NCBI RefSeq assembly: GCF_002855575.1
Contig: NZ_PKRQ01000002.1
Location: 620,001-684,000 of the forward strand
Reading direction: 5' to 3'
Source of the DNA: Tabrizicola sp. TH137
GTDB lineage: Bacteria > Pseudomonadota > Alphaproteobacteria > Rhodobacterales > Rhodobacteraceae
Length of the DNA stretch: 64,000 nt
Made by a program: the position numbers and the translations under genes. The notes beneath the pieces are model-generated. The model did no database searches, was not told the DNA's origin, and was given only the letters and a program-made list of their open reading frames with translations. Shown here piece after piece: positions 20,778 to 45,578 of the stretch; the stretch's first letter is position 1, and every line of letters starts with the position of its first letter.

Positions 20778-20861
20778 CGTTAACCTTACCGCCCCCTCAC
20801 CGCAGCGCCCGCTGCGTGGCCACAATTTGCTGCACAGTTTACGGCACAGAATGCGGCACAG
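20778..20861 (-). repeat. 84-bp CTGTG/GTTAAC element, copy A
   Basis: Read on the minus strand it begins directly after the stop codon of the CDP-alcohol transferase gene. Four boxes (CTGTG, CTGTG, CTGTG, TTGTG) start exactly 12 bp apart, then AGCG, 25 nt, and GTTAACG. A second copy at 45431-45514 has identical spacing and 45 of 52 identical bases over the box region. Not explained by any gene; the other part of this 211-bp convergent gap shows nothing else I recognise. Confidence 0.8.
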
Positions 20862-21470
20862 TCAGCGAAAGCTCCGCCGGGCCAGCAGCACCCTGCTTAA
20901 CGCGGTCACAAGGCAAAGCGCAGCAAAGCCCCAGGCCAGCGGCGCAAAGGCCGCGGGGAACAGGCAAAGGATCAGGAAAAAGGCAATGGTTTCCGTGCCT
21001 TCCAGCAGACCGGCGGTGAAGTAGAGCGACTTCTCCCCCCGCGACCGCGTCTCCATCCCGCGCTTTTCGGCCAGCACGGCATAGCCAAGGAAGGTGCTGC
21101 CATTGATGTAGAAGCTGGCCAGCAGAAAGGCCCCCGCCACCCCATTCGCCATCGGATCGCGCATCACGAAAGCCATTGGAATCGCGGCGTAAAAGACGAA
21201 ATCGCAGACGATATCCAGATAGCCGCCGAAATCCGTCTTCCCCCGCGCCCGCGCCACCGCCCCGTCCAGCCCATCCGCCACCCGACTGGCCATCAGGGGC
21301 AGCACCGCCGCCCATCCCGGCCCGCCCGATGCCAGCACCCCTGCCGCCAGTAGCCCCAGCGCAAGCCCCGCCAGCGTCACCGCATCCGCCGTAACCCCGC
21401 GATCCGCAAGGCCTTTTCCCAGACGGTTCAGACCCGGATCAATCACGCCGCGCATCCAGCCATCCAGCAT
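20862..21470 (-). CDS. CDP-alcohol phosphatidyltransferase family protein
   Basis: 202 residues, about six membrane segments. The CDP-alcohol motif appears as DGLDGAVARARGKTDFGGYLDIVCD (near 66-90), with the Asp residues that bind Mg2+ and CDP. The family joins a CDP-activated lipid to an alcohol (glycerol-phosphate, inositol, choline and so on); the alcohol used here cannot be told from sequence. A standalone gene, convergent with the photolyase-like gene. Confidence 0.88.
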   Translation of the reverse strand: MLDGWMRGVIDPGLNRLGKGLADRGVTADAVTLAGLALGLLAAGVLASGGPGWAAVLPLMASRVADGLDGAVARARGKTDFGGYLDIVCDFVFYAAIPMAFVMRDPMANGVAGAFLLASFYINGSTFLGYAVLAEKRGMETRSRGEKSLYFTAGLLEGTETIAFFLILCLFPAAFAPLAWGFAALCLVTALSRVLLARRSFR

Positions 21471-21575
21471 CCATTCACCTTTCCGTATGCTTGAACAGAA
21501 GACTGTTGCCAGCCGCCCCAGCCCCTAGCTATCCCGGTGAAGAGGCGCAAAACAAGCGCCGCCATGGGAGAGATC

Positions 21576-22787
21576 ATGCACCGCCGCACCGCCCTGCGCC
21601 TGCTCGCCACCCTGCCCGCCTTTGCCGGGTTTTCGACAAAAGCCCTTGCCGCAGAATGGGATGGCATCCTTTCCGAAGCCAAGGGCCAGACCGTCTATTG
21701 GCACGCCTGGGGCGGCGATCCCAAGATCAACGATTTCATAACCTGGATCGGGGATAAGGCGCAGGAGCGTTACGGAGTCTCCCTCGAACATGTCAAACTC
21801 GCCGCCACTTCCGATGCCGTGGCTCGCGTTCTGGCCGAACAGCAGGCCGGACAGACGGAAGGCGGCGCTGTCGATCTCATCTGGATCAATGGCGAAAACT
21901 TCGCCGCGATGAAGGCGCAGGGCCTGCTTTACGGACCCTTTGCCGAAGCCCTGCCGAACTGGCCCCTGGTGGATGTGGCCGGCAAACCCGCCACCGTGAC
22001 CGATTTCACCCTGCCAACCGAGGGTTTCGAAAGCCCCTGGGCCATGGCGCAACTGGTCTTCGAGTACGATACGGCTCGCGTGCAGAACCCGCCGCAAACC
22101 ATTGATTCCCTTCTTGAATGGGCGATTGAAAATCCCGGCCGCTTCACCTATCCGCAGCCGCCCGACTATCTGGGCACCACCTTCCTGAAACAGGTGCTCT
22201 ATGGCGTGATGGCCGACCCGTCGGTCCTGCAATCCCCCGTCGATGATGCCGGTTACGAGGCACAGGTCGCCCCCCTCTGGGCCTATCTCGACCGCCTCCA
22301 TCCCGCGCTCTGGCGGCAGGCGCAGGCCTTTCCGCAGAACGAACCGGCGCTTGGCCAGTTGCTTGCCGATGGCGAGATCGACATTTCCTTCGCCTTCAAC
22401 CCCGGTCGCGCCAGCGCCGAGATCGCCGCAGGCACCCTGCCCAACAGCGTGCGGACCTTCGTCCTGCAAGGCGGGACCATCGGCAACGCCTCTTTCGTCG
22501 CAATCCCCTTCAACGCCGCCCACAGGGCCGGAGCCATGGTCATGGCCAACCTCCTCCTCGACCCGGAAGTGCAGGCCCGCGCGCAAGACCCGGCCATCCT
22601 CGGTTTCCAGACCGTCCTCGATCTCGCGGCCCTCACTCCCGAAGACCGCGCCCGGTTCGACGCGCTGGAGCTTGGCATCGCCACCCTCTCCCCCGCCGAT
22701 CTCGGCCCGGTGCTGCTGGAACCCCATGCAAGCTGGATGACCCGCATCGCGCAGGACTGGACAGCCCGCTACGGGGTTGCCCAGTGA
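21576..22787 (+). CDS. YnjB-like ABC transporter substrate-binding protein
   Basis: 403 residues. Twin-basic start MHRRTALRLLATLPAFAGFSTKALA is a signal peptide, followed by WDGILSEAKGQTVYWHAWGGDPKINDFITWIG, LIWINGENFAAMKAQGLLYGPFAEALPN and FVLQGGTIGNASFVAIPFNAAHRAGAMVMANLLLDPEVQ, all typical of YnjB. GGGAGAG precedes the ATG. First gene of a three-gene transporter operon with four-base overlaps; the substrate of YnjBCD systems is not firmly known. Confidence 0.9.
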   Translation: MHRRTALRLLATLPAFAGFSTKALAAEWDGILSEAKGQTVYWHAWGGDPKINDFITWIGDKAQERYGVSLEHVKLAATSDAVARVLAEQQAGQTEGGAVDLIWINGENFAAMKAQGLLYGPFAEALPNWPLVDVAGKPATVTDFTLPTEGFESPWAMAQLVFEYDTARVQNPPQTIDSLLEWAIENPGRFTYPQPPDYLGTTFLKQVLYGVMADPSVLQSPVDDAGYEAQVAPLWAYLDRLHPALWRQAQAFPQNEPALGQLLADGEIDISFAFNPGRASAEIAAGTLPNSVRTFVLQGGTIGNASFVAIPFNAAHRAGAMVMANLLLDPEVQARAQDPAILGFQTVLDLAALTPEDRARFDALELGIATLSPADLGPVLLEPHASWMTRIAQDWTARYGVAQ

Positions 22788-24469
22788 CAGCAGGCAGGCG
22801 GCGCGGTGGTCTTCTCCGGCTGGCGCCGCCGCTCACGCTCGGCCTGATGCTGTTGCCCGTCGCGGCAGGCCTTGCCGGGACGGCGCTGCCCGCCCTGCGC
22901 GACGGCGCCGCCGGCCTTGACATGGTGCTGGCCTGGCCCGGCCTGCCCCGCGCGGCGGCCCTGTCGCTGGTCACCGGGCTTACCTCCACGCTTCTGGCCC
23001 TTGGACTGACGGTCCTGATCCTTGCGGCCTTCGCGGGCACCCCGGCCTTCGCCCGCATCCGCCGCAGCCTTGCGCCGCTGCTCTCGGTGCCCCATGCCGC
23101 CGCGGCGCTGGGGCTTGCCTTCCTGATTGCCCCCTCGGGCTGGATCGCGCGGATACTCTCGCCCGAACTCACGGGATGGGACCGTCCGCCCGACCTGCTC
23201 ATCCTGAACGATCCCTGGGGGCTGTCCCTCACGCTCGGGCTGATCGCCAAGGAACTGCCCTTCCTTCTGCTCATGGCGCTGGCCGCCCTGCCGCAGGTGG
23301 ATGCCGACCGCCGCCTGACCACCGCTGCCACGCTGGGCTATGGCCGCATCGCCGCCTTCGCCTTCACCCTGCTGCCCGACCTCTATCGCCAGTTGCGCCT
23401 GCCCACCTATGCGGTGCTCGCCTATGGGATGACGACGGTGGATATGGCGATGATCCTCGGCCCTACGCTGCCACCCACGCTTTCCACCCAGATCACCCTC
23501 TGGATGGGCGACCCCAGCCTCGCCATGCGCGACACGGCCGCCGCTGCCGCGCTGCTTCAGCTTTTGCTTGCAATCCTCGCCATAAGCCTCTGGCGTATCA
23601 TGGAGATCGCGGCGAAATGGGCGCTGGTTGCAACCGCCTTCCGCGCGCCCCGTGCCACGCGGCTGGACCGCCCCGCCGCGCTGATGGCCCGGATCGCCAG
23701 CCTTGCCGTTGCAGGCAGCCTTACCTTCGGGCTGGCCGGGCTGGCGCTCTGGTCGGTGGCAGGGCCGTGGCAGTTTCCCGATGCCCTGCCGCGCGCCTTC
23801 ACCTTGCAGACCTGGGCCACTGCCGCGCCCGCGCTTGCCGATACCGCGCTGACAACGCTGGCCATCGCGGCCCTTGCCACGCTGGCGGCGCTGGCCCTCG
23901 CCCTCGCCTGCCTCGAGGCGGAGGCGCGGCTGCATCTGCGGCCGACATCCCGCGCAATGGTGCTGCTCTACCTGCCGCTTCTGGTGCCGCAGATCGCCTT
24001 CCTGCCGGGGTTGCAGGGATTGGCGCTGTCGCTCGGTCTCGACAGCAGCCTCGCCGCCGTTGCCGCGATCCATCTGGTCTTCGTCCTGCCCTATGTCTTC
24101 CTGTCGCTCTCCGGCCCTTTCCGCGCCTGGGATGGCCGCATCGCCACTGCCGCCGCGACGCTGGGCGCCTCTCAGGCGCGGATCTTCTGGCGCCTGCGCC
24201 TGCCCATGCTGGCCGGGCCGGTGCTGACCGCCGCCGCCGTGGGCATCGCCGTGTCCATCGGCCAGTATCTGCCCACGCTGCTCATCGGCGGCGGACGGGT
24301 CGAAACCCTGACGACCGAAGCCGTCGCCCTGTCCTCGGGCGGCAACCGCCGCCTGATCGGGGCCTATGCCGTACTGCAACTGCTCATTCCGGCGCTGGCC
24401 TTCACCGCTGCGCTGGCCCTGCCGCTGATCCTCTGGCGCAACCGCCGCCTGATGCGGGGGCTGGGATGA
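22784..24469 (+). CDS. YnjC-like ABC transporter permease (two fused permease domains)
   Basis: 561 residues, about twelve membrane spans: two BPD_transp_1 domains in tandem. EAA-type loops appear as TAATLGYGRIAAFAFTLLP near 183-201 and TAAATLGASQARIFWRLRLPML near 449-470. A GTG start overlaps the binding-protein stop by four bases, so translation is coupled. The fused arrangement matches E. coli YnjC. Confidence 0.9.
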   Translation: MTAGRRRGGLLRLAPPLTLGLMLLPVAAGLAGTALPALRDGAAGLDMVLAWPGLPRAAALSLVTGLTSTLLALGLTVLILAAFAGTPAFARIRRSLAPLLSVPHAAAALGLAFLIAPSGWIARILSPELTGWDRPPDLLILNDPWGLSLTLGLIAKELPFLLLMALAALPQVDADRRLTTAATLGYGRIAAFAFTLLPDLYRQLRLPTYAVLAYGMTTVDMAMILGPTLPPTLSTQITLWMGDPSLAMRDTAAAAALLQLLLAILAISLWRIMEIAAKWALVATAFRAPRATRLDRPAALMARIASLAVAGSLTFGLAGLALWSVAGPWQFPDALPRAFTLQTWATAAPALADTALTTLAIAALATLAALALALACLEAEARLHLRPTSRAMVLLYLPLLVPQIAFLPGLQGLALSLGLDSSLAAVAAIHLVFVLPYVFLSLSGPFRAWDGRIATAAATLGASQARIFWRLRLPMLAGPVLTAAAVGIAVSIGQYLPTLLIGGGRVETLTTEAVALSSGGNRRLIGAYAVLQLLIPALAFTAALALPLILWRNRRLMRGLG

Positions 24470-25125
24470 CCACGGCTTCACCCCTCATCCTCGACAGGCT
24501 GACCATCACCCTCGGTGCGCGCCGCCTCGTGGACCTGACCCTCACCATCCCGGGGGGCGAAGTGGCAACGATCATGGGCGCCTCCGGTTCGGGCAAATCC
24601 ACCGCTCTTGCCGCAATCACTGGAACACTGCCGCCAGAGTTCAAAAGAACCGGCCGCATCCTGTTGAACGATAACGACATAACGGACATCCCCACCCGGC
24701 TGCGCGGGGTCGGCCTGATGTTCCAGGACCCGGTTCTCTTTCCCCATCTCTCCGTCGCAGGCAACCTCGCCTTCGCGCTGCCCGCCCATGTCACCGGCCG
24801 CGCCGCCCGCCGCGCCCGGATCGAACAGGCCCTCGCCTCGGCGGGGTTGGAGGGGCTGGCAGAGCGCGACCCCGCCACGCTCTCGGGTGGTCAGAAGGCC
24901 CGCGTCGCCCTGCTCCGCACCCTGCTTGCGGAACCGAAGGCGCTGCTTCTTGATGAACCCTTCTCGCGGCTGGATGCCGACCTGCGCAGCCAGATCCGCG
25001 CCTTCACCTTTCAACGCGCCCGCGCCGCAGGCATTCCCACCTTGCTCGTCACCCATGATGCCGAAGATGCCCGCGCCGCAGGCGGCCCCGTCCTGTCGCC
25101 GCTCGGCGACTCCCTGCCCCTCTGA
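24466..25125 (+). CDS. YnjD-like ABC transporter ATP-binding protein
   Basis: 219 residues. Walker A is MGASGSGKSTALAAI, Q-loop LMFQDPVLFPHL, signature LSGGQKARVALLRTLL, Walker B ALLLDEPFSRLD, switch His in LLVTHDAEDA. The ATG overlaps the permease stop (ATGA). Completes the YnjBCD-like importer. Confidence 0.92.
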   Translation: MTTASPLILDRLTITLGARRLVDLTLTIPGGEVATIMGASGSGKSTALAAITGTLPPEFKRTGRILLNDNDITDIPTRLRGVGLMFQDPVLFPHLSVAGNLAFALPAHVTGRAARRARIEQALASAGLEGLAERDPATLSGGQKARVALLRTLLAEPKALLLDEPFSRLDADLRSQIRAFTFQRARAAGIPTLLVTHDAEDARAAGGPVLSPLGDSLPL

Positions 25126-25206
25126 CACCCGCGCCCTCGCCCGGCGCCTCCGCCTCGTCTATCCTGCCCCTCGACACGCCCGAAGCCGCCCGCCCACAGG
25201 TGCCCC

Positions 25207-25671
25207 ATGATCCGCCCCCTCGCCACCCTCGCGCTGATCCTCGCCTTCGCCACGCCCGCTGCCGCCTGCCGCCTCCCGGCAGGGATCGCGGCACTGGCAG
25301 AGGACACGCTCGCCGCGATCAATGCCGAACGGCAGGCCAAGGGCATGGCCCCGCTCAGCCCGGATACGCGACTGCAAGAGGCAGCCCAGGCCCATGCCTG
25401 CGACAGCGCCACCCGCAACCGGATGGGCCATGACGGCAGCGATGGCAGCGATCTTGGCACCCGCGCCGCCCGCGCCGGCTATGCCTATCGCGAGATCGCC
25501 GAGAATGTCGCGCAGGGCTATCCCTCGCCGCAGGCCGTCACCGAGGGCTGGATGAACAGTCCCGGACATCGCCGCAACATCCTGATGCGGCGCGCCAGCG
25601 ATGCAGGGGTGGGCATTGCGCTCGGCAGCAATGGCGATCTGCACTGGGTGCTGAAACTCGGCCGGGAATAG
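25207..25671 (+). CDS. CAP/SCP domain secreted protein
   Basis: 154 residues. Signal peptide MIRPLATLALILAFATPAAA, then a CAP domain: MAPLSPDTRLQEAAQAHACDSATRNRMGHDGSDGSDLGTRAARAGYAYREIAENVAQGYPSPQAVTEGWMNSPGHRRNILMRR. The CAP cavity residues (His in MGHDG, Glu in IAEN, His in SPGHR) are present. Two further cysteines near the N-terminus (ACRLP, HACDS) may form a disulfide. Function of bacterial CAP proteins is mostly unknown. Confidence 0.9.
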   Translation: MIRPLATLALILAFATPAAACRLPAGIAALAEDTLAAINAERQAKGMAPLSPDTRLQEAAQAHACDSATRNRMGHDGSDGSDLGTRAARAGYAYREIAENVAQGYPSPQAVTEGWMNSPGHRRNILMRRASDAGVGIALGSNGDLHWVLKLGRE

Positions 25672-25734
25672 CAGCGGAAATTCAATATAAACTATTGTTT
25701 TTGTTGTATTATTTTCACAATCTTGATCGACAAC

Positions 25735-27051
25735 CTAGCGCGCCACCACCAGCTCCGCCTTCAACCCGCCAAGTGCCGCGCTTTCCCCAAGCCGCAACTC
25801 CCCGCCATGGCTGCGCGCGATATCCGCGGCAATGGACAGGCCCAACCCCACCCCGCCCCCCCGGTTCGGGTCGCGCGCGGCATCCAGACGGCTGAAGGGT
25901 TGCACGGCCTCGGCCCGCCGCGCCGCGGGGATGCCCGGACCGTCATCCTCCACCGTGAAGCGCAGCCAGCGTTCCCCCATCGCCACCGTCACCTCGGCCC
26001 GGCCGCCATAGCGCAGCGCGTTTGACACCAGATTCTCCAACGCCCGCGCCATCGCCTGCGGCCGCAGCGGCACGCTGGCCAGCGGTCCGTCCAGCCGCAA
26101 CTCCACCCGCTTGCCCATCCGCGCCGCATTCTCCACCACCCGCCGGGCAAGCGCCTCTGGGTCCACCGGCTCCACCGCCTCGGTCGCGTCGCCGCGGGCA
26201 AAGGACAGGAATTCATCCACCAGCCGCTCCATCTCGGCCACATCGGACAGCAGCGCCCGCGTCTCCTCATCTTCGGGCAGCAGCGACAGGCCCAGCCGCA
26301 TCCGCGTCAGCGGGGTGCGCAGGTCATGGCTCACCCCCGACAGCATCAGGGTGCGCTGTTCGATCTGCCGCTCGATCCGCGCCCGCATGTCCAGAAAGGC
26401 ATGGCCCGCCGCCCGCACTTCGGTCGCCCCCCTCGGGCTGTAGGGGATCACCTGCCCCTTGCCAAAGGCCTCAGCCGCCAGAGAAAGCCGCGCGATGGGG
26501 CGCAACTGATTGGAAAGGAACAGATAAGCGATGACGGTCATCAGGATCGACGTGACGATCATCAGCACCAGAAGCTGATGCGGATTGGTGGCCGACATGC
26601 GCGACCGGTTCACCGTCACCGCCATCTCGCCCCAGCGTGTGGGATGATGCAGGCGGACCATCCCGTCCCCCTCCACCAGATCGACAGGGGCAAGGCGCGG
26701 AAACAGGTCGCGCAGCGTGCGGATCACCACCCGCCCCGAAAGATCCAGCAGTTCGGTCCGATCCGCCGCCGGGATGGCATCCCGCGCCGGAAGCGCCACC
26801 TGCACCTGCAAGGGCCCGGAGGCCCGCGCCAGTTGCCCCTGCGCCTCGCGCAGCGATCCCGCCTGCTCGGCCAGGGCCAGAAGCAGCCGCAACTCCGCGG
26901 CCACGCCGCCGGTCAGCTGCTCCGTCACCCGCTCGAAATGCCGCTGTATGAAGGTCACGGACACGACAAGCTGGATCGTGACGATCGGCACGATCAGGAT
27001 CAACGCGGCGCGGCCGTAAAGACCGCGGGGCAGGAAGGACTTGCGGGTCAT
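25735..27051 (-). CDS. sensor histidine kinase, EnvZ-like
   Basis: 438 residues. Membrane spans near 14-34 and 158-180 enclose a periplasmic sensor of about 120 residues; a HAMP domain follows (NQLRPIARLSLAAEAFGKG); the phospho-acceptor is H242 in SGVSHDLRTPLTR; N box LENLVSNALRYGG, G boxes DDGPGIP and GGGVGLGLSIAADIARSHGG. Start MTRKSFLPRG chosen because the upstream open frame is proline/glycine shadow of the divergent gene. No response regulator gene is adjacent, so the partner lies elsewhere. Confidence 0.92.
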   Translation of the reverse strand: MTRKSFLPRGLYGRAALILIVPIVTIQLVVSVTFIQRHFERVTEQLTGGVAAELRLLLALAEQAGSLREAQGQLARASGPLQVQVALPARDAIPAADRTELLDLSGRVVIRTLRDLFPRLAPVDLVEGDGMVRLHHPTRWGEMAVTVNRSRMSATNPHQLLVLMIVTSILMTVIAYLFLSNQLRPIARLSLAAEAFGKGQVIPYSPRGATEVRAAGHAFLDMRARIERQIEQRTLMLSGVSHDLRTPLTRMRLGLSLLPEDEETRALLSDVAEMERLVDEFLSFARGDATEAVEPVDPEALARRVVENAARMGKRVELRLDGPLASVPLRPQAMARALENLVSNALRYGGRAEVTVAMGERWLRFTVEDDGPGIPAARRAEAVQPFSRLDAARDPNRGGGVGLGLSIAADIARSHGGELRLGESAALGGLKAELVVAR

Positions 27052-27100
27052 GGGACCAGAGCCTAGCCTGCCCCCCGCCCCGAGGGAAGAGGAGGCCCCC

Positions 27101-27988
27101 TTGCCGCCCCCGCCACAGCCGATCCGCGCCCCGCGCCTGCGCAGCCTGCTCGCCCCCAACCCGTCGCCCCTCACCTTCACCGGGACACGGACCTATCTCC
27201 TCGGCACCGGCAGGGTGGCGGTGATCGACCCCGGCCCCGCCGATGACAGCCATCTCGACGCCATCCTTTCCGCCCTCGACCCCGGCGAAACCGTCAGCCA
27301 TATCCTTGTCACCCATGCCCATCGCGACCATTCCGCACTCGCCCCACGCCTCGCCGCCGCGACGGCTGCGCCCGTCCTCGCCCATGGCAGCGCCGCCGAA
27401 GGCCGCAGCCCGCAGATGCAGGCCCTCGCCATGCAGGGCCTCTCGGCAGGGGGCGACGGGCTCGACACCGCCTTCGCCCCCGACCTGCGGCTGGGCGATG
27501 GCGACCGGCTGACCGGCCCGGATTGGGAGATCACCGCCCTGCACACCCCCGGCCATCTCGGCGGCCATCTCTGCCTTTCTGCCGGAGAGGTGCTCTTTTC
27601 CGGCGATCACGTGATGGGGTGGAGCAGTTCGGTCATCGCCCCGCCCGACGGCGACATGGGGCAATACATGGACAGCCTCGCCGCCCTTAACCGCCCCGAC
27701 TGGCGGCAATTCCTGCCCGGTCACGGCGACCCCATCTCCGAACCGCAACACCGCGTGCAGGCCCTGATCGCCCACCGCCAGCAGCGCGAGGCCGAAATCT
27801 GCCGCGCGCTGGAGGCAGGCCCCGCCGGCGCAGACGGACTCGCCACCCGCCTCTACCCCGACCTCGCGCCCGCCCTGCACCCTGCCGCCTGTCGCAACGT
27901 CTTCGCCCACCTGCTTGATCTGTTACGGAAAAACCGCGTCACCACCGATCCGCAGCCGAGCATGGACAGCCTGTTCCGCCTGCGCTGA
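27101..27988 (+). CDS. MBL-fold metallo-hydrolase (LACTB2-like)
   Basis: 295 residues from TTG. Zinc motif HAHRDHSALAPRLA, then HTPGHLGGHLCL and FSGDHVMGWSSSVIAPPDGDMGQYMDSL, and FLPGHGDPI; a C-terminal winged-helix-like extension follows. Close to the LACTB2/beta-lactamase-like nuclease group. I chose the TTG because GAAGAGGAGG lies five bases upstream; the ATG at 27050 would overlap the divergent kinase start by two bases and adds a proline-rich stretch. Confidence 0.85.
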   Translation: MPPPPQPIRAPRLRSLLAPNPSPLTFTGTRTYLLGTGRVAVIDPGPADDSHLDAILSALDPGETVSHILVTHAHRDHSALAPRLAAATAAPVLAHGSAAEGRSPQMQALAMQGLSAGGDGLDTAFAPDLRLGDGDRLTGPDWEITALHTPGHLGGHLCLSAGEVLFSGDHVMGWSSSVIAPPDGDMGQYMDSLAALNRPDWRQFLPGHGDPISEPQHRVQALIAHRQQREAEICRALEAGPAGADGLATRLYPDLAPALHPAACRNVFAHLLDLLRKNRVTTDPQPSMDSLFRLR

Positions 27989-28018
27989 GGCGATCCGAAA
28001 CTTTTCCACCATTTCCCC

Positions 28019-28047: not shown

Positions 28048-28057
28048 GCCCCCGTGT

Positions 28058-37414: not shown

Positions 37415-37443
37415 AGCGACGGGCAGGACAACAGGAAACGAGA

Positions 37444-38748
37444 ATGACGGAAGCTTTGCGGAACAGGACGGCGCCGGCCCTTCGGGTGGCGGCCATCGGT
37501 CTGGTGCTCTGGGGCGGGGCCATGGCCGCGCCTGCGGCGGCGCAGGACGGCAGCCTCTTCGCGCCCCGCATGGTGATCAACGGCCAGACCATCACGAATT
37601 TCGAGGTGGAGCAGCGGATGCTGTTCCTGCGCGCCCTGCGCGCACCGGGCGACCCGGAAAAGGAGGCGATCAAGGCGCTGATGCGCGACCGGCTCGGGGC
37701 GCAGGCCGCCGAGGATGCCGGGATCACGGTCACCGCCGAACAGGTGTCGGAAGGGCTGGAGGAATTCGCCTCCCGCGCCAACATGACGGCGGAGCAGTTT
37801 ACCGCCGCCCTGGCCGACGAAGGTGTGGCGCCCGAAACCTTCCGCGATTTCGTCGCCAATGGCCTTTTGTGGCGCGAGGTGGTGCGGTCGAAATTCGGCC
37901 CGCAGATCCGCATTTCCGAAGCGCAGATCGACCGCGCCCTGGCGGAGAACGCCAAGAAGACGCAGATCCGCATCCTGCTGTCGGAACTCATCCTGCCCAT
38001 TCAGGGCGATGACGTGACCCCGGCACTGGATCAGGCCCGCGCCATCAAGGCCGAGGCGGCGGGCGACGGCTTTGCCGCGGCGGCGCGCGAGTTTTCCGCC
38101 GCCCCTTCGGCAGCGCGCGGCGGGCGGCTGGACTGGCTGGAGGTGACGAACCTTCCCCCGGCCATCGTGAGCCAGGTCCTGACCCTGTCGCCCGGCGAGG
38201 TTTCCGATCCCATCGTGGTGCCGCAGGCGGTGGTCCTGTTCCAGTTGAACGGCATCAGCGATGTGGAAAGCGCCATGCCCGCGCAGGTGGAAGTGGAATA
38301 TGCCCAATTCGCCCTGCCCCCGAACCTCGACCCGGCCACGATCCGCGCCCAGGTCGATGGCTGCGGTGATCTTTACCCGCTGGCCCGCGGCCTGCCGCCC
38401 GAACAGTTGCGCCTGACGACCCAGATGATGGGCGCGGTGCCGCAGGATATCGGGCTGGAACTGGCCAAGCTGGACGTCGGCGAATTCGTCCTGCGCCAGC
38501 GCGCGGGATATACCGAGTTGCTGATGCTCTGCCTGCGGACAGGGGTGCCGGAGACCGACCCTGCCGCCGCCGCGCAGGTGCCGGTGACGACGGAAGAGGC
38601 CGAAGCGGTGGAAGGCGAGGAGGCCGAGGCCACGCCGCTGGTGGACCGCGAGGCGCTGCGCAACCGGCTGGGCAATGCGCAGCTTACCGCCATGGCCGAG
38701 GCCTATATGGAAGAGCTGCGGTCGGAAGCCATCATCGAGGAACGGTGA
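37444..38748 (+). CDS. surA: SurA-like periplasmic chaperone / peptidylprolyl isomerase
   Basis: 434 residues. Signal peptide near APALRVAAIGLVLWGGAMAAPAAAQ. The SurA N domain (VINGQTITNFEVEQRMLFLRAL ... LGAQAAEDAGITVTAEQVSEGL) is followed by one clear parvulin domain (FAAAAREFSAAPSAARGGRLDWLEVTNLPPAIVSQVLTLSPGEVSDPIVVPQAVVLFQLNG). It helps outer-membrane barrels such as the adjacent LptD fold. I start at the ATG preceded by CAGGAAACGAGA; ATG 37411, overlapping the lptD stop, is possible. A low-complexity Glu/Ala stretch lies near 395-412. Confidence 0.9.
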   Translation: MTEALRNRTAPALRVAAIGLVLWGGAMAAPAAAQDGSLFAPRMVINGQTITNFEVEQRMLFLRALRAPGDPEKEAIKALMRDRLGAQAAEDAGITVTAEQVSEGLEEFASRANMTAEQFTAALADEGVAPETFRDFVANGLLWREVVRSKFGPQIRISEAQIDRALAENAKKTQIRILLSELILPIQGDDVTPALDQARAIKAEAAGDGFAAAAREFSAAPSAARGGRLDWLEVTNLPPAIVSQVLTLSPGEVSDPIVVPQAVVLFQLNGISDVESAMPAQVEVEYAQFALPPNLDPATIRAQVDGCGDLYPLARGLPPEQLRLTTQMMGAVPQDIGLELAKLDVGEFVLRQRAGYTELLMLCLRTGVPETDPAAAAQVPVTTEEAEAVEGEEAEATPLVDREALRNRLGNAQLTAMAEAYMEELRSEAIIEER

Positions 38749-39722
38749 CTGCCCCGCGCCCCATCGCGCTGAGCTGTGGCGATCCTTCCGGCATCGGCAC
38801 GGAACTGGCCATCCAGGCCCGGCAGGCCCTGGCCGGGGAGGTGCCCTTCTTCTGGATCGGTGATCCGGCGCATCTGCCCCCTGGCACCGCCCATGCGGTG
38901 ATCGCCGCGCCAGAGGCGGCGGCGGGCGTGGCGGCAGAGGTGCTGCCGGTGCTGGCCCATCCTTTTCCGCATCCTGCCCCGCCGGGCCGTCCCGACCTGC
39001 GCAATGCCGCCGCCGTCATCGCCGTGCTGGAACGGGCGGTGGCCCTGGTGCAGGCGGGGGCGGCCTCTGCCCTGTGCACCCTGCCGATCAGCAAGAAGGT
39101 GCTGAAGGACGGCGCGGATTTCGCCTATCCCGGCCATACCGAGTTTCTCGCCCATCTGGCGGGGGTGGAGCGGGTGGTGATGATGCTGGCCTGCCCCGAA
39201 TTGCGGGTGGTGCCTGCGACCATCCATATCGCCCTGTCCGAGGTGCCGCGGGCCCTTACCCCTGCCCTGCTGGAAGAAACGATCCGCATCACCGAGGCCG
39301 GGCTGATCCGCGATTGCGGGATTGCCCGGCCCCGGATCGTGGTGGCGGGGCTGAACCCTCATGCCGGTGAAGGCGGGGTGATGGGGCGGGAAGAGCTCGA
39401 CTGGATCGCCCCCCTGGTCGCCCGGCTGGCGGCGGAAGGCATGGCGATTTCCGGGCCGCTGCCGCCCGACACGATGTTCCACAAGGCGGCGCGGGCGCGT
39501 TATGACGTGGCGGTCTGCATGTATCACGATCAGGCGCTGATCCCGATCAAGACGGTGGATTTCGACGGGGGGGTGAATGTGACGCTGGGCCTGCCCTTCA
39601 TCCGCACCTCGCCCGATCACGGCACGGCCTTCGACATCGCGGGACAGGGCATCGCCAATCCGACAAGCCTTGTCGCGGCGCTGCGGATGGCGCAACAGAT
39701 GGCGGCGGCACGCGGGATGTGA
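38745..39722 (+). CDS. pdxA: 4-hydroxythreonine-4-phosphate dehydrogenase
   Basis: 325 residues, GTG start overlapping the surA stop by four bases. Signature sequences: [48 protein letters not shown] (substrate and metal His), [62 protein letters not shown]. It oxidises 4-phosphohydroxy-L-threonine in pyridoxal phosphate synthesis. The surA-pdxA-rsmA order is conserved in proteobacteria. Confidence 0.97.
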
Positions 39723-39726
39723 CGTT

Positions 39727-39778
39727 CGGGACCGGGGCGCCGCCCCGGACCCCGGAGTATTTTCGCCAAGATGAAGGG
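39727..39778 (+). repeat. GAGGATATTT-type intergenic element, copy 3 (diverged)
   Basis: Perfect 7-bp hairpin CCGGGGC-GCC-GCCCCGG, then ACCCCGGAGTATTTTCGCC and AAGATGAAGG. It fills most of the 68 bp between the pdxA stop and the rsmA start, in the direction of transcription. Core differs from other copies (GGAGTATTTT). Confidence 0.6.
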
Positions 39779-39790
39779 ACGGGTTCAGGG

Positions 39791-40630
39791 ATGGCGACGA
39801 TCGACGGGCTGCCGCCCTTGCGCGAGGTGATACGGGCGCATGATCTGGTGGCGAGAAAGCAGCTTGGCCAGAACTTCCTTCTGGACCTGAACCTGACGGC
39901 CAAGATCGCGCGGCAAGCGGGCGACCTGTCGGCCTGCGATGTGCTGGAGGTGGGGCCGGGACCGGGCGGGTTGACGCGGGGCCTACTGGCCGAAGGCGCG
40001 CGGCGAGTGCTGGCGGTAGAAAAGGATGCCCGCTGCCTGCCCGCGCTGGCCGAGGTGGCGGCGGCCTATCCGGGGCGGTTGCAGGTCATCAATGGCGACG
40101 CGCTGGAGGTGGATGCGCTGGCACATCTGACGCCGCCCGTTCGGGTGGTGGCGAACCTGCCCTATAATGTGGGGACGGAGCTTCTGATCCGCTGGCTGAC
40201 ACCCGCCCAGTGGCCGCCCTTCTGGGAGAGCCTGACGCTCATGTTCCAGAAGGAGGTGGCGGAGCGGATCGTGGCCAAGCCGCGCAGCGATCATTACGGG
40301 CGGCTGGCCCTTCTGGTGCAATGGCGGGCCGAGGCGAAGATCGTGATGCATCTGCCGCCCGAAGCCTTTACCCCAGCGCCGAAGGTGCATTCCTCGGTCG
40401 TGCATATCACCCGGCTGGCCGAGCCGCGTTTCCCGGCGGACGGGGCGGTGTTGCAGCGGATCACGGCGATGGCCTTCAACCAGCGGCGCAAGATGCTGCG
40501 ATCCTCGCTGAAGGGGCTGGGGCCGGATATCGAGGAAAAGCTGGTCGCTGCGGGGATCGAGCCCACGGCGCGGGCGGAGGAGATTTCGCTGGAGCGGTTC
40601 TGCGCCCTCGCCCGCCTGATTGCGGAATGA
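39791..40630 (+). CDS. rsmA: 16S rRNA (A1518/A1519) dimethyltransferase RsmA (KsgA)
   Basis: 279 residues. Motifs in order: [25 protein letters not shown] loop [16 protein letters not shown], acidic [11 protein letters not shown], the catalytic [38 protein letters not shown] and the C-terminal [15 protein letters not shown]. It dimethylates two adjacent adenosines late in 30S assembly. The ATG ([17 protein letters not shown]) is preferred over upstream codons lying within the intergenic repeat. Confidence 0.96.
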
Positions 40631-40633
40631 GAA

Positions 40634-40656
40634 AGGCCGGGGGGGTGCCCCGGCCT
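40634..40656. terminator. hairpin terminator after rsmA
   Basis: 9-bp perfect stem AGGCCGGGG with a 5-nt loop, just after the rsmA stop and facing the convergent DUF4167 gene. T-rich sequence after it is weak (TGTCTTC). Confidence 0.6.
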
Positions 40657-40697
40657 GTCTTCGGATGTCATTAAGAAAACGTTAACCAGTCAGCCGT

Positions 40698-41627
40698 TCA
40701 TTCCGCCGCTTCGGCGGGGCCGCCTTCGGGCGGGGCCTTGTCAGCCTTGGGTTTGCGCGGGGCGCGGGCCTTTTTCGGCGCCTCGGCGGCAGCCTCCTTG
40801 GCCGGAGCGTCCTTGACCGGGGCGTCCTTTACCGGGGCTTCCGCCTTGGGCGCGACGGGCGTCTCGATGGCGATGGTCACCACTTCGGGCTTGGGCGCTG
40901 CGGCGGCAGGGGCCTGATCGGGCCGGGCGTCGCGGTCACGGTCGCGGTTGCGATCCCGGTCGCGACGGAATTCGCGGCGTTCGCCGCCCTGCTGTTCGTT
41001 GCGGCGTTCGTTCGGGCGGTCGCCGCCACCCTGACGATCATTCTGCCGATCATTGGGGCGGTCATTGGGGCGGTCGTTCTGGCGGTCACCGCGATCATCG
41101 CGGCGTTCGCCCCGGTCATCGCGGCGCGACTGGAAGGGGCGCGCCTCCGGCGTTTCCACAAGCTGCGCCTCGCCCTCGCCCAGTTCGATCACTTCGGCGC
41201 TGCCCGAGTCTTCCCCGCGCTCGTCGCGGTTGTCGCGATAGTCGCCACGATCCTGCCGGTCGCGCCAGGGTTCGCGGTCGCGATCCCGGTCACGGAACCC
41301 GTCGCGATTGCCGTTGTTGCCGTTGTTTCCGCCACCGTTCTGCTGTTGCTGGCGCTGGCGTTCTTCCTGCTCGGCCGCCATTTCGCGCTGCGCCTCGCCC
41401 AACATCCGGGTGTAATGTTCCGCATGTTGCAGGAAATTCTCCGCCGCCACGCGGTCATTGGAAAGCTGCGCATCACGGGCGAGAAGCTGGTATTTCTCGA
41501 TGATCTGCTGCGGCGTGCCGCGCACCTTGCCTTCGGGGCCGGAGCTGTCGAACACGCGGTTGATGATGTTGCCGAGGGTGCGCGGGCGGTTCGCCTTGTT
41601 GCGCGAGCGGGACTTGGAAGATCTCAT
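40698..41627 (-). CDS. DUF4167 domain-containing protein
   Basis: 309 residues. The DUF4167 domain is N-terminal (residues 3-80: RSRNKANRPRTLGNIINRVFDSSGPEGKVRGTPQQIIEKYQLLARDAQLSNDRVAAENFLQHAEHYTRML). The rest is low complexity: Gln/Asn run, then repeated RDRDR/NDRPNDRQ units near 105-240 and an Ala/Pro/Lys C-terminus with repeated APVKDAPVKDAP. The basic, disordered composition suggests RNA or ribosome association, which is inference. AAAGGACAAG precedes the ATG. Alphaproteobacterial family of unknown function. Confidence 0.92.
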   Translation of the reverse strand: MRSSKSRSRNKANRPRTLGNIINRVFDSSGPEGKVRGTPQQIIEKYQLLARDAQLSNDRVAAENFLQHAEHYTRMLGEAQREMAAEQEERQRQQQQNGGGNNGNNGNRDGFRDRDRDREPWRDRQDRGDYRDNRDERGEDSGSAEVIELGEGEAQLVETPEARPFQSRRDDRGERRDDRGDRQNDRPNDRPNDRQNDRQGGGDRPNERRNEQQGGERREFRRDRDRNRDRDRDARPDQAPAAAAPKPEVVTIAIETPVAPKAEAPVKDAPVKDAPAKEAAAEAPKKARAPRKPKADKAPPEGGPAEAAE

Positions 41628-41873
41628 CTTGTCCTTTGGTCCAGATGACCTGGCTTTCTGCGAAGCGCCTTCGGGTCGCGTGGTCCCTTGCGGGACCGGA
41701 AGGCGTTCAAGCTGTCTGGCAGTTCCGGGACAGGGGAGCCTGCGCCCGGCCCCGTCTCCTGCTTTCGACTAAACATTCTTGGCGGCGCATGACAAGCTGA
41801 TTCTCGCAGCGAACGCTGCCGGGGGCCGGATTCCGCGGTTTCGGGCGCGCGGATGTGGCCGAATTCCCGCAGA

Positions 41874-42728
41874 TCAGGCCGAGCCGCAGCCGGTATCATC
41901 CATCGGTTTGCGCGCGGCGACGACGCGGTCCCGGCCATCCAGATCGGGCAGGATGGCAAGCTCCGTCAGCCCCTGCGCGGCGAAAAGCGCGGCAACCGCC
42001 TGCCCTTGGGTCGGCCCGATCTCCACGATCAGCCGCCCGCCGGGCATGAGCCGCGCCGGGGCGCCGCGCGCAATGGCACGATAGGCATTCAGACCGTCGC
42101 CCCCCGGCGTCAGGGCACGGCGGGGTTCGCGCAACACCTCGGGCGCGAGGTCGGGCATCTCGTCCTCGGCGATATAGGGCGGGTTCGACAGGATCAGGTC
42201 AAAGCGCCCCGGAACCGCGGCAAACCAGTCGGACACCAGGAATTCGGCGCGGTCGGCGAGGCCGAGGTCGCGGGCATTCGCCTCGGCCACAGCTAGGGTC
42301 GCGGGGTGGATATCGGTGCCGATGCCCCGCGCCAGCGGCCTGTCGGCCAGGCAGGAGAGCAGGATGCAGCCGGTGCCGGTGCCAAGGTCGAGAAGCTTGA
42401 AAAAAGGTTCCGAAAGCGCGGCAGAAACAAGGATTTCCGTCTCGGGCCGGGGGTCGAGCGTATCGGGCGTGACGCGGAAGCTGCGCCCCCAGAAGAGCCG
42501 CGCGCCGGTGATGTGGCTGACGGGGTCGCGGGCGGCACGGCGGGTGATGGCGGCCTCGAAGGCGGCGGCAGCTTCGGGAGACAGCGGATCGGCCAGATGC
42601 AGGGTCAGCCGGTCCGGCGCTATGCCTGCCGCATGGGCCAGCAGGGCGCGGGCATCGCGGGGGGCGTCGGGGATGCCCGCCGCGGCAAGGCGGGGAATGG
42701 CGGCGCGCAGCGCCTCGTTCCCCGTCAT
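41874..42728 (-). CDS. prmC: release factor glutamine methyltransferase
   Basis: 284 residues. N-terminal helical domain, then [12 protein letters not shown], the SAM site [31 protein letters not shown] and the catalytic [43 protein letters not shown] with NPPY. It methylates the GGQ glutamine of RF1/RF2. Its start overlaps the prfA stop by four bases, so enzyme and substrate are co-translated. Confidence 0.96.
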
Positions 42729-43780
42729 CCTTCCATCTCGGCCAGTTTTTCGGCCTGGTCATGGGCAACCAGCGCATCCACCACGGCATCCAGCTCGCCG
42801 CCCATGATCTGCGGCAGGGCATAGAGCGTCAGGTTGATGCGGTGATCGGTCATCCGGCCCTGCGGAAAGTTGTAGGTGCGGATGCGTTCGGAGCGGTCGC
42901 CCGATCCCACCTGCGCCTTGCGATCGGCGGCGCGGTCCTGCGCCTGGCGTTCGCGTTCCATCTCGTAAAGCCTTGCGCGCAGCACCTGCATGGCGATGGC
43001 GCGGTTCTGGTGCTGGGATTTCTCTGATGAGGTGACGACGATCCCGGTGGGAACATGGGTGATGCGCACCGCCGAGTCGGTGGTGTTCACATGCTGGCCC
43101 CCTGCCCCGCTGCTGCGCATCGTGTCGATGCGGATGTCGGCGGCGGGAATGTCGATATCCACCTCCTCGGCCTCGGGCAGGACGGCGACTGTGGCGGCAG
43201 AGGTGTGGATGCGGCCACCTGCCTCGGTCTCTGGCACGCGCTGCACGCGGTGGACGCCGGATTCGAATTTCAGCTTGGCGAAGACGCCTTCGCCCTGCAC
43301 ATGGGCGGTAACCTCCTTGATCCCGCCAAGATCGGACAATTGCTGATCCAGAATGTCGAAGCGCCAGCCCTGCCGTTCGGCATAACGCTGATACATGCGG
43401 AGGAGATCGCCCGCGAAGAGCGCCGCCTCTTCCCCCCCCGTGCCGGGGCGGATTTCAAGGATGGCGGGGCGGGCATCGGCGGCATCCTTGGGCAGGAGCG
43501 CGATGCGCAGCGCCTGTTCATAGACGGGGATCAGGGCGCGCAGGCGGGGAATTTCATCCTCGGCCAGCGCCTTCATCTCCGGGTCGGACAGCATCGCCTC
43601 GGCTTCGGCAAGGTCATCCAGCGCGCGGCGATAGGCGGCGATCTGGTCCGCCACGGGCCGCAGGTCGCTGTATTCGCGCGAGATTTTCGCAATCTCTGCC
43701 GGGTTTGCGCCCGCGTTCAGCCGGGCCTCGAGATATTCGAAGCGCTGGGTGATCTGGGCGAGTTTGTCGAGCGGAACCAT
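42725..43780 (-). CDS. prfA: peptide chain release factor 1
   Basis: 351 residues. The UAG/UAA-reading domain and the catalytic GGQ ([27 protein letters not shown]) are intact. [31 protein letters not shown] and the C-terminal [22 protein letters not shown] are standard. Start [21 protein letters not shown]; the open frame upstream belongs to non-coding sequence and the next gene. Confidence 0.97.
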
Positions 43781-43812
43781 GCGCGCGGGTTTGGCGGGTT
43801 CGGCGCGGTCGG

Positions 43813-44262
43813 TCAAGGGTTGAGCGCGGCAAGCCAGTCGCGCAGGCGGGCGGCGTTCACGCCCATATCGCTGCGGCCAAAGCGGAGGCGGGCATGGAGG
43901 GTGACGCGGGCTTGCGCACCCTCCGCCACGGCTTCGGCCGTGGTGTAGTCGGGAAAGCCCCAGAGCGCGGAACGGGTGATCCATGTGATCCGGCCCTCGG
44001 CGGGCGATCCGGCCAGGCGGATGGTGCGGGGCGTGGCCATCGCGACAGCCTCGATCCGCGCCAGAGCCTCTGCCGCCGTGCCGGGGATCAGGCAGGTGAC
44101 GCGGGCATCACCCTCGCCCGCCGCGATGCTGCAATCGGGCTGCTGGGCGGGCGCGGGCGAGACATGCCAGCGCGCCGGGTCCGAGGGGGCAAGCCGGACA
44201 TAGGCGGCGAAGCCGATCACCAGAAAGATCAGAAACCCCGCGACAAAGCCCATCCTGCCCAC
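43813..44262 (-). CDS. DUF1499 domain-containing protein
   Basis: 149 residues. One N-terminal membrane anchor ([21 protein letters not shown]), then the DUF1499 region: [82 protein letters not shown]. Function unknown. ATG at 44253 is an alternative start. Downstream on the same strand is prfA (32 bp away). Confidence 0.88.
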
Positions 44263-44295
44263 CTCGATTCACCTTTTCCGATTGCCTGCCGCCAT

Positions 44296-45264
44296 TTAGC
44301 GCCGCGTCCTCGCCCAATGATAGAGGCAGATCAGATCATAGGCGACATGCGCCCCGGCAATCGCCGTGGCCCCGGTCGTGTCATAGGGGGGCGAAACCTC
44401 CACCACATCGCCGCCCACCATGTTGATCCCCGCCAGATCCCGCAGGATCGCCGCCGCCTGCCAGGAATGCAGGCCGCCCCAGACCGGCGTGCCGGTCCCC
44501 GGCGCATAGGCGGGGTCGAGCGCGTCGATGTCGAAGGTGACATAGGCGGGCTTGTCCCCCACGATCTCCTTGGCCAGGGCCACGGCATGGGCCACGCCCT
44601 TTTCGTGCAACTCCCGCGCGGAGAGGACGTTGACGCCAAGGTAATCCTCGGTCGTCGTGCGGATGCCGATCTGGAGCGACCGTTTGGGGTCCACATAGCC
44701 TTCCTTCACGGCCTTGTAGAGCATGGTGCCATGGTCGATCCGGTCCGGGTTGTCATCGGGCCAGAGGTCGGAATGGGCGTCGAAATGGATCACGCCGAGG
44801 GGGCCATGCTTTTCGGCATGGGCCTTCAGGATCGGATAGGTGATGTAGTGATCGCCCCCCAGCGTGATCGCCCCCGCGCCTGCGTTCAGGATCGTGCGGA
44901 TATGGTCGGTCAGCGCGCCCGGAAAGCTGGGCGTATGGGCATAGTCGAAGGCGAGGTCGCCGTAATCGACCACCGCCATCTCCTCCAGCGGATCGGTGCC
45001 CCAGCCGAAGGGCGGGTCATAGGCGATGAGGCTGGATGCCTCGCGGATCGCGCGGGGGCCGAAGCGGGTGCCGGCGCGGTGGCTGGTGGCCTGATCGAAG
45101 CAGACGCCAGTGATGGCGATATCTACCCCGGTCAGGTCCTTGGTATAGGTCCGCCGCAGGAAGGAGGTGGCGCCGGCGAAGGCATTCTCGAAGGAATGGC
45201 CGCGCAGGCCCTTGCGGGTGAAAGCGGTATCAATGTCAGACTTTGCGTCTTCCAGAAGTGCCAT
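44296..45264 (-). CDS. speB: agmatinase (ureohydrolase)
   Basis: 322 residues. The manganese-binding ureohydrolase signatures are complete: GGDHYITYPILKA, IHFDAHSDLWPDD, and VTFDIDALDPAYAPGTGTPVWGGL. It converts agmatine to putrescine and urea; related guanidinobutyrase or guanidinopropionase activity cannot be excluded. Start MALLEDAKSDIDTAF chosen on AGGGACA upstream; a longer frame exists. Confidence 0.88.
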   Translation of the reverse strand: MALLEDAKSDIDTAFTRKGLRGHSFENAFAGATSFLRRTYTKDLTGVDIAITGVCFDQATSHRAGTRFGPRAIREASSLIAYDPPFGWGTDPLEEMAVVDYGDLAFDYAHTPSFPGALTDHIRTILNAGAGAITLGGDHYITYPILKAHAEKHGPLGVIHFDAHSDLWPDDNPDRIDHGTMLYKAVKEGYVDPKRSLQIGIRTTTEDYLGVNVLSARELHEKGVAHAVALAKEIVGDKPAYVTFDIDALDPAYAPGTGTPVWGGLHSWQAAAILRDLAGINMVGGDVVEVSPPYDTTGATAIAGAHVAYDLICLYHWARTRR

Positions 45265-45578
45265 GATGGGGATGTCCCTGAACAGCAGCGCAGTCGTTTG
45301 GAAAGCCGAGACGCGCGGATCGGGTGCCGCGAAGGTGCCATGCCGGGTGGCCATGTCAAGCGGCGGGCTGCGGCGATCCGGCGCGCGGTGATGTAACCCT
45401 CTGACATGGCGAAAGATTTCCCGTCACCGGCTGTGCCGGATGCTGTGCCGCCTTCTGTGCAGCAAACTGTGGCCACGCAGCGCACGGCGGGTTTACCGGC
45501 AGGTTGCGTTAACCAAGCCGCGCGAATCGGCGGCTGGACGGTCACGGGGCGTGCAGCCGCCGGGGCGGGGTTTCAGGG
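45265..45578. other. 314-bp intergenic region upstream of speB
   Basis: Contains the putative speB promoter side (minus strand) and, from 45431, the 84-bp CTGTG/GTTAAC element. A 62-codon plus-strand frame starting at 45406 overlaps the element but has no ribosome binding site. No other feature recognised. Confidence 0.5.
45431..45514 (+). repeat. 84-bp CTGTG/GTTAAC element, copy B
   Basis: Four CTGTG boxes start at 45431, 45443, 45455 and 45467, exactly 12 bp apart; AGCG, 25 nt and GTTAACC follow. Spacing is identical to copy A at 20.8 kb (minus strand). The third unit and the end of the fourth (TGTGGCCACGCAGCG) are the most conserved. Neither copy lies at the same gene type, so the element is mobile or a shared regulatory module. 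Confidence 0.8.

Follow-up and report, generated by a model that had tools for sequence, protein, structure and literature searches.

The analysed window, a 64,000-nucleotide stretch of the Tabrizicola sp. TH137 genome (G000), carries two copies of an 84-bp sequence that opens with four short boxes repeated head to tail, which raises the question of what such a sequence is and whether it stands alone. The spacing is alike in both copies, as had been described, with boxes at offsets 0, 12, 24 and 36, AGCG at 48, then 25 nt, and GTTAAC at 77 (Table 1). The earlier figure of 45/52 identical positions in the box part was reproduced, and 62 of the full 84 positions are identical. Of the claim of four CTGTG boxes at a 12-bp period, the period and the box count stood, whereas the fourth box of copy 1 reads TTGTG. 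In a scan of the window both copies score 19 on 19 core positions; apart from the same copies taken one box off register (16), no further sequence there scores above 14, a value also attained by each of three mononucleotide shuffles of the window. No GANTC site lies close by beyond the GTTAAC of copy 1.

Table 1. Coordinates of the two copies, their parts and the flanking genes in the window
Feature	Position	Strand	Remarks
Copy 1, whole element	20778..20861	-	begins right behind the stop codon of gene 20862-21470; convergent gene pair
Copy 1, box 1, CTGTGCCGCATT	20850..20861	-	
Copy 1, box 2, CTGTGCCGTAAA	20838..20849	-	
Copy 1, box 3, CTGTGCAGCAAA	20826..20837	-	
Copy 1, box 4 (terminal), TTGTGGCCACGC	20814..20825	-	
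Copy 1, GTTAAC	20779..20784	-	TTAA enriched on the same side family-wide
CDP-alcohol phosphatidyltransferase domain gene	20862..21470	-	flanks copy 1, outside the element; anchors the orthologous site
Gene with FAD-binding domain of DNA photolyase type	19469..20650	+	flanks copy 1, outside the element
Copy 2, whole element	45431..45514	+	
Copy 2, box 1, CTGTGCCGGATG	45431..45442	+	
Copy 2, box 2, CTGTGCCGCCTT	45443..45454	+	
Copy 2, box 3, CTGTGCAGCAAA	45455..45466	+	
Copy 2, box 4 (terminal), CTGTGGCCACGC	45467..45478	+	followed by the conserved tail AGCGCACGG
Copy 2, GTTAAC	45508..45513	+	in 11 genomes aligned: 6 GTTAAC, 1 ATTAAC, 4 GGTAAC
GAATC, a GANTC (CcrM-type) site beyond copy 2	45524..45528	+	kept in 11/11 genomes aligned
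TGTAACC near copy 2	45392..45398	+	TTAA there in 9/11 aligned genomes; not in own genome or G006
Arginase family gene	44296..45354	-	flanks copy 2; anchors the orthologous site
Class-III aminotransferase gene	45579..46985	-	flanks copy 2; anchors the orthologous site

The preliminary description spoke of a two-copy element and named as a refutation that these be the only copies, with no conservation elsewhere. The opposite was found: a search of the genome and its relatives with the spaced pattern, which it had suggested, returned many copies, at least 85 of them in the TH137 genome, and the family proved to be present in relatives within the genus. In TH137, exact TGTG(N8)TGTG(N8)TGTG(N8)TGTG sites number 51, versus 1 for the reversed control, and a three-box pattern with at most 3 mismatches gave 87 matches versus 0 in the control. 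The 85 copies were obtained by merging registers in the fetched loci and are a lower bound, because scoring covered only the stretches around pattern matches.

By the calls of a home-made codon-model gene finder, used in place of an annotation, 81 of the 85 copies overlap any called gene by at most 20 bp. Of the 80 copies flanked by called genes to the left and right, 36 sit between convergent genes; the convergent share of the background is 946 of 5,818 bases of window gaps of at least 70 bp, giving an enrichment with a binomial p of about 1e-9. Between tandem genes the direction of the copy is the same in 17 cases and opposite in 14, showing no preference. The overall spacing of copies has a CV of 0.83 versus 0.98 for random placement, and 144 of 2000 random sets were equally regular. 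Tandem pairs of copies sit 115-127 bp apart. A triple array occurs at C32:186k, with flanks that contain element copies, and contig C11 has 14 copies on the minus and 4 on the plus strand.

In the profile of the 85 copies the core consists of direct repeats, the last box alone is near-palindromic, and no inverted ends are visible by eye. Counting from where the last box begins, TTAA between +12 and +90 is present in 48 of the 85 copies and absent from 37; the first occurrence is at 30 bp in 23 copies, at 35-36 bp in 12, at 41 bp in 4 and elsewhere in 9. The GTTAAC at fixed distance thus characterises the two window copies but not the family. GANTC is over-represented outside the core, at 40-60 bp from the last-box start (16 matches in 85 copies).

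Comparison within the genus, of which 19 genomes were examined and which takes in Fuscovulum ytuae, revealed that the family also occurs in relatives, for the most part at corresponding locations, with a box type that depends on the clade: TGTGCMG/GTGGCCAC, TGTRCCG/GTCAGCAC, GTGCAG/GTATGCAC, or, with an 11-bp period, ATGCAC. Counted over whole genomes, the TGTGCMG type occurs 68 times in G000, 74 times in G002 and 75 times in G010, and not once in the remaining 16 genomes of the genus; the GTATGCAC type occurs 18-40 times in six other genomes and not once in G000, G002 and G010. The counts of these two types are thus mutually exclusive. Loci of other clades were chosen by pattern, which biases them towards their own box sequence, and the per-position zero identities between G000 and the GTATGCAC group were set aside for this reason.

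When sites were paired with those of G000 by reciprocal flanks on one strand, partners were found for 53 of 60 sites in G010, 23 of 30 in G002 and 17 of 44 of the GTATGCAC type. A looser pairing on both strands gave 58/62 for G010, 27/30 for G002, 7/13 for G012 and 16/30 for GTATGCAC-type loci, some of these pairings resting solely on the copy-bearing C32:186k flanks; the one-strand figures are the stricter. In the looser pairing an inversion was seen in 1 of 28 G002 pairs and in none of the other three groups. The two window sites, being anchored by flanks, are free of pattern bias. At the site of copy 2 the boxes of the respective clade occur in 11/11 genomes aligned (alignment row L255, another fragment of a G002 site already represented, is left out of this count), and in five more distant genomes there are ATGCAC arrays in four and no evident array in one. 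At the site of copy 1, 10 of 17 readable genomes have the boxes of their own clade, 3 more have ATGCAC arrays, and the array is absent from 4. In a wider scan of genome contigs, at least 64 loci were found among the matches listed: 62 in one MAG and one each in a Chloroflexi and a Tepidisphaeraceae MAG. A window copy matched a single record, of Fuscovulum ytuae, in a plasmid collection and none in a phage collection; nothing in the plasmid collection matched the ATGCAC-type array.

The sequence between boxes is likewise homogeneous within genomes. Spacer identity is 0.76 within both G010 and G002, above that of orthologous sites (0.71 for G000-G010, 0.61 for G000-G002), with a small bias in the comparison from spacer positions -19 and -18, which are partly set by the search patterns. 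Between G010 and G002 orthologous identity (0.82) exceeds the within-genome value (0.77), which counts against operators that change in concert, as does the homogeneity of the spacers, which gene conversion would also yield. In each of the three comparisons orthologues are more alike than cross-species pairs taken at random. Linkage between box types is weak in G010 (p 0.05, 0.006, 0.02) and absent in G000 (p 0.52-0.70).

The orientation of the copies follows replication in G002 (56 of 72 copies; 0 of 300 permutations as good) and G007 (31 of 40; 6 of 300), where origin and terminus were placed by sampled GC skew, the samples being impure (in G002 one of the 7 negative-arc samples has a slightly positive value, and several in G007 break the pattern) and dnaA not located at the skew switch. 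This strand bias is partial, and the species are not independent in this respect because the sites are inherited.

The family, whose copy number, build, location between genes, mostly conserved sites, concerted box change by clade and, in two genomes, replication-linked orientation were observed here, is rather likely, as far as sequence can tell, to consist of dispersed operator arrays, about 85 in TH137, for a putative sequence-specific DNA-binding protein. Each array would comprise three or four head-to-tail half-sites spaced by 12 bp (by 11 bp in the genus's distant members) and end in an inverted half-site, with GTGC in the boxes and GCAC or CCAC in the last, so that subunits could line up next to one another on the helix, capped at one end. 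Just past the presumed cap come TTAA, at a small set of favoured distances, and a GANTC site, the latter in a minority of copies. The changing specificity of the putative protein may have driven the in-step change of boxes within each clade, and its role would probably lie at chromosome level, in nucleoid organisation, segregation, or replication/transcription traffic, not in regulon control. The preliminary description had taken the phased repeats as a sign of a protein array on DNA; the phasing, the largely conserved positions, the clade-wise box change and the lack of a shared terminal-box RNA helix agree with it, and binding itself stays putative. Further points against the operator reading are the weak box linkage in G010, the closeness of orthologues relative to random pairs, the sites where no array is seen, the copies lacking TTAA, the want of a GANTC near copy 1 and the partial strand bias. 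Neither a candidate binding protein nor a gene theme among the neighbours scanned was found. It is possible, if on the doubtful side, that all this amounts to a chromosome-wide Rhodobacterales system, in which a putative head-to-tail protein would occupy tens and up to about 85 polar arrays in each genome, read with replication, its recognition having switched at least three times in the genus and most sites having been rewired in place.

The main rival, judged unlikely, is a small, non-autonomous repeat of MITE- or REP-like mobile kind, dispersed in the distant past, with no host function and with copies kept alike within each genome by ectopic gene conversion or same-site replacement. The dispersed, intergenic copies, their tandem pairs, the homogenised spacers and the weak box linkage in G010 would fit it, and so would the orientation, since a link to replication is known for single-strand transposition. 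Against it, positions are largely kept between species, box types are unlinked in G000, no inverted ends stand out by eye in the profile, the downstream TTAA-type motif and GAATC are kept at the copy 2 site although they lie outside the core, and tens of sites in each genome would have to undergo conversion across about 70 bp. The Y1 transposase family PF01797, searched for as the RAYT of REP/BIME elements, is over cut-off in 0 of 19 genus genomes, with one sub-threshold match in G000. The palindromic unit of REP/BIME elements was likewise not seen in the direct-repeat core. An ordinary transcription-factor regulon, in which a response regulator or comparable factor would bind tandem half-sites, is less probable still. 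The 11-12 bp head-to-tail half-sites resemble OmpR-family operators (as given in part of PMC9275681) and 30 complete genes begin within 160 bp of a copy, but convergent pairs are the commonest location, the Rhodobacter CenR site TGA-N8-TGA differs (same part of PMC9275681), and no common theme is apparent in 30 proteins scanned (4 window neighbours and 26 genes starting near copies), 27 of them with a Pfam match. The suggested check of neighbouring genes thus brought out an intergenic, convergent-rich placement but no common function in these proteins.

An RNA element, be it a small RNA, a 3' UTR signal or a terminator, has very little probability. RNAalifold on 60 of the 85 TH137 copies fell below all 100 column shuffles on either strand; however, the folds of two consensus strings and of the window copies, both of them tested, are no better than those of dinucleotide shuffles (z -0.14 to 0.69), and the sole helix of at least 4 pairs common to clades A, B and C at 70% pairing joins box 1 to box 2, GTGC with GTGC with two G-U pairs, there being no common terminal-box helix at that threshold. 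Moreover, six element loci have no Rfam match up to E 0.5, and orientation is independent of the flanking genes in tandem pairs; Rfam 15 at gathering score found one tRNA and nothing else in the window. The preliminary description also considered a repeat-peptide origin (LCRx-LCRx), since 12 bp equal four codons and both window copies translate alike. This is contradicted by the 11-bp period in distant members and by the placement of 81 of 85 copies outside called genes, overlaps of up to 20 bp aside, and the variable box positions, on a reading of the column profile, do not seem to be third-codon positions, so that such a remnant can practically be dismissed.

Among known systems, Noc, SlmA and MatP have palindromic sites without polarity that either avoid the terminus region or are restricted to it; they are alike in having tens of dispersed sites per chromosome-organising protein, not tied to promoters, whereas the arrays are polar and spread over the whole chromosome. 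MraZ operators have head-to-tail boxes of about one helical turn, as here, but sit in the promoters of defined regulons and differ in box sequence. A GntR-type operator, TGTNNNNACA, was a possible reading of single boxes in variant copies and was dropped because it does not hold in other clades. CIR intergenic repeats with GANTC sites were reportedly described by Chen and Shapiro in 2003. According to an excerpt of PMC2229807, CIR sequences of Caulobacter and Brucella have a pair of long inverted repeats, one of which has GANTC within or next to it; they resemble the present family as dispersed intergenic repeats of about 100 bp with GANTC sites in Alphaproteobacteria and differ from its 12-bp direct repeats, where GANTC lies outside the core in a minority of copies. 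OmpR-family/CenR operators share the head-to-tail boxes of about one helical turn, but they too sit in regulon promoters with unlike boxes (part of PMC9275681). CenR came into question as a binder of direct repeats in Rhodobacter, and a CenR regulon was rejected, its TGA-N8-TGA contrasting with TGTGC, GTGCA or ATGCA (PMC9275681, same part). AIMS, in the passages of PMC5993296 at hand, are strand-biased octamers, commoner towards the terminus, forming with KOPS polar chromosomal guide sequences, and KOPS-FtsK co-evolution is the title of a reference cited there. The preference for leading-strand orientation is shared, as in G002 and G007 above, and the difference lies in size, octamers versus arrays of about 70 bp in tens of copies. 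No description of the element was found in the titles and abstract beginnings of the open-licence literature searched.

If the copies are instead old mobile repeats, they would be unusual as an example of concerted evolution among bacterial loci that stay fixed. If a protein does read the operator arrays, they would constitute a chromosome-level DNA-binding system for which that literature, as far as its titles and abstract beginnings go, yielded no description, and a natural experiment on the joint change of specificity in a protein and its dozens of unlinked sites. The arrays provide a ready bait for finding the putative protein.

The two copies in the window agree with the preliminary description in all but one point, since box 4 of copy 1 reads TTGTG; their box parts are identical at 45 of 52 positions, and both carry AGCG at offset 48 and GTTAAC at offset 77. 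The element had been taken to exist in two copies, which no longer holds. In the 4.66-Mb genome of Tabrizicola sp. TH137 (38 contigs), four TGTG boxes at every 12 bp gave 51 exact sites against 1 for the reversed control, and three boxes, with as many as 3 mismatches allowed, gave 87 matches against 0. After scoring of the fetched loci and merging of registers, 85 copies remain, a lower bound. A few are arranged in tandem, 115-127 bp apart. In two relatives the array at the copy 1 site is duplicated in tandem. In the window, copy 1 is adjoined by a second, CCCGG-rich dispersed repeat, matches to which (query positions of about 757-830) occur in genomes G006, G012, G014, G018 and G007.

Coordinates of the arrays and of features near them
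Feature	Genome or sequence	Position	Locus position
Copy 1 (minus strand)	window	20778-20861	
Copy 2 (plus strand)	window	45431-45514	
CCCGG-rich repeat	window	20656-20730	
Tandem copies at copy 1 site	G007, contig C1	2799105 and 2799221	
Tandem copies at copy 1 site	G018, contig C7	306369 and 306485	
Copy between dnaA and dnaN	TH137 (G000), contig C11	854865	L007, around 1500
dnaA match	TH137 (G000), contig C11	853703-854188	
dnaN	TH137 (G000)		L007:1691-2818
Plasmid element, Fuscovulum ytuae	NZ_CP124537.1	16939-16997	L456:3001-3059
Weak Y1_Tnp match	TH137 (G000), contig C22	135398-135694	L235

In the column profile of the 85 copies, about 70 bp form a conserved core, in which GGCGAAAACGG is followed by boxes TGTGCCGNATCC, TGTGCCGCATTC and TGTGCMGCAAAC, the terminal TGTGGCCACGC and the less conserved AGCGCACGGTGG. 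Counted in 20-bp bins from the start of the last box, TTAA peaks at 20-60 bp (62 hits), with a secondary bin at -80 to -60 (16 hits) and 0-3 hits in each remaining bin, while GANTC has 16 hits at 40-60 bp and 0-6 in other bins. The first TTAA lies at 30 bp in 23 copies, at 35-36 bp in 12, at 41 bp in 4 and at other distances in 9; the other 37 have none between +12 and +90. Phased direct half-sites closed by an inverted one are compatible with a DNA-binding oligomer, which would occupy the direct half-sites with the inverted half-site as its cap. The results for RNA structure were mixed. Four sequences showed no folding advantage over their dinucleotide shuffles (z -0.14 to 0.69), the alifold value of 60 TH137 copies was below all 100 column shuffles on both strands, and the sole helix of at least 4 pairs common across clades joins box 1 with box 2 (GTGC with GTGC), the terminal box taking part in no such helix.

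Searches of open-licence papers yielded no description of the element. Caulobacter CIR repeats resemble the present arrays in lying between genes and in having GANTC, but are inverted repeats (PMC2229807). AIMS and KOPS have polarity in common with the arrays but are octamers (PMC5993296), and CenR sites differ from the boxes (PMC9275681).

A search of the genome and its relatives found arrays to be widespread in TH137 and across the genus, with the box type varying by clade. TGTGCMG-type arrays number 68 in TH137, 74 in G002 (probably Fuscovulum ytuae, as coordinates on the plasmid of that species are identical) and 75 in G010, and are absent from the other 16 genus genomes and from 42 further relatives; among 248 family genomes a broader pattern had many matches only in TH137 (63) and G002 (54), with one match each in two others. 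Other genus members have box types of their own. The GTGCAG..GTATGCAC type occurs in G014 (20), G005 (18), G001 (27), G018 (38), G007 (40) and G017 (39), with none in the other 13 genus genomes or in controls, and most copies read in G012 and G006 have GTCAGCAC at box ends. ATGCACN4-6ATGCAGAC, found in G011 (41), G013 (27), G003 (14), G008 (11) and G015 (1), was matched in 25 of 293 genomes searched. Some of these matches look coding (e.g. locus L394 of G011), and the single matches in 17 of the 20 matching genomes outside the genus may be chance, because the reversed control also matches once in each of two genomes. More than one match was found in G133 (5), G074 (5) and G126 (3), where six loci read have three or four boxes about 11 bp apart. 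Arrays of ATGCACANNNN boxes with an 11-bp period and ATGCAGACG at the end occur in other genera (loci L402, L386, L389 and L403), which suggests that the array family predates the genus.

The copy 2 site, retrieved from relatives with its DNA as the query and anchored on the flanking genes, carries an array with the clade's own boxes in all 11 genomes (G000, G002, G010, G012, G014, G005, G018, G007, G001, G017 and G006). GAATC is present in all 11 and upstream TTAA in nine; the downstream motif is GTTAAC in six, ATTAAC in one and GGTAAC in four. A left-flank search reached five more distant genomes, but not G009, G015 or G016; ATGCAC arrays are present in four of the five (G008, G003, G013 and G011), and no array is evident in G004. 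The copy 1 site was readable in 17 genomes (not in G001, where the contig stops), of which 10 have clade-type arrays, three (G013, G003 and G008) ATGCAC arrays, and four (G011, G009, G015 and G016) no array within the 240 bases read. Reciprocal flanks, searched on one strand, paired 53 of 60 sites in G010, 23 of 30 in G002 and 17 of 44 of the GTATGCAC type with a TH137 site; with both strands allowed, one of 28 orthologous pairs in G002 was inverted.

For sites that mostly keep their places over the age of the genus and change in step, differently in each clade, the best explanation would be a shared trans-acting reader of drifting specificity. The main rival, gene conversion among old mobile repeats, remains viable because the spacers are homogenised too, and not the boxes alone. 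Spacer identity within a genome is 0.76 in both G010 and G002, above that of orthologous sites (0.71 for G000-G010, 0.61 for G000-G002), and random cross-species pairs are lower still (0.64 and 0.57, respectively). Between G010 and G002, orthologous spacers (0.82) exceed the within-genome value (0.77). Linkage of box types is absent in TH137 and weak in G010.

Genes were called with a simple codon-model finder, and 81 of the 85 copies overlap any of them by at most 20 bp. For 80 copies both flanking genes were called, and the pair is convergent in 36 cases, tandem in 31 (17 copies run along the genes, 14 in the opposite sense) and divergent in 13; convergent gaps account for 946 of 5818 bases in window gaps of at least 70 bp (binomial p about 1e-9 for 36 of 80). 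Pfam matches were obtained for 27 of 30 proteins, comprising four neighbours from the window and the products of 26 genes that start close to copies, and no common gene theme was seen among the 30. One TH137 copy lies between dnaA and dnaN. The plasmid element of F. ytuae has a gene with a ParB domain on one side and a tyrosine recombinase in convergent orientation on the other, with a DnaA N-terminal-domain gene and an ScpB gene nearby. A 224-aa open frame in TH137 matches Y1_Tnp weakly, below the curated cut-off, and is the only match at E 0.001 in the 19 genus genomes.

Along the 3.9-Mb contig of G002, 20 samples of GC skew place the change to positive values at 2.15-2.34 Mb and the change to negative values at 0.78-0.98 Mb; one sample within the negative arc is slightly positive. 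With two register duplicates and two copies on plasmid DNA set aside, the orientation of 56 of 72 copies fits the best two arcs, as good a fit being reached in 0 of 300 permutations, and the nearest skew sample agrees for 53. G007, a genome in one contig, has 31 of 40 copies that fit two arcs (6 of 300 permutations as good) and 29 that agree with the skew, whose samples are less clean than in G002. Since dnaA does not coincide with the skew switch, the origin was inferred from skew. Copies are spaced nearly at random along G002 (CV 0.83 vs 0.98 for random). With no link to promoters and no gene theme, the replication-linked orientation would point to a role of the arrays at the level of the chromosome.
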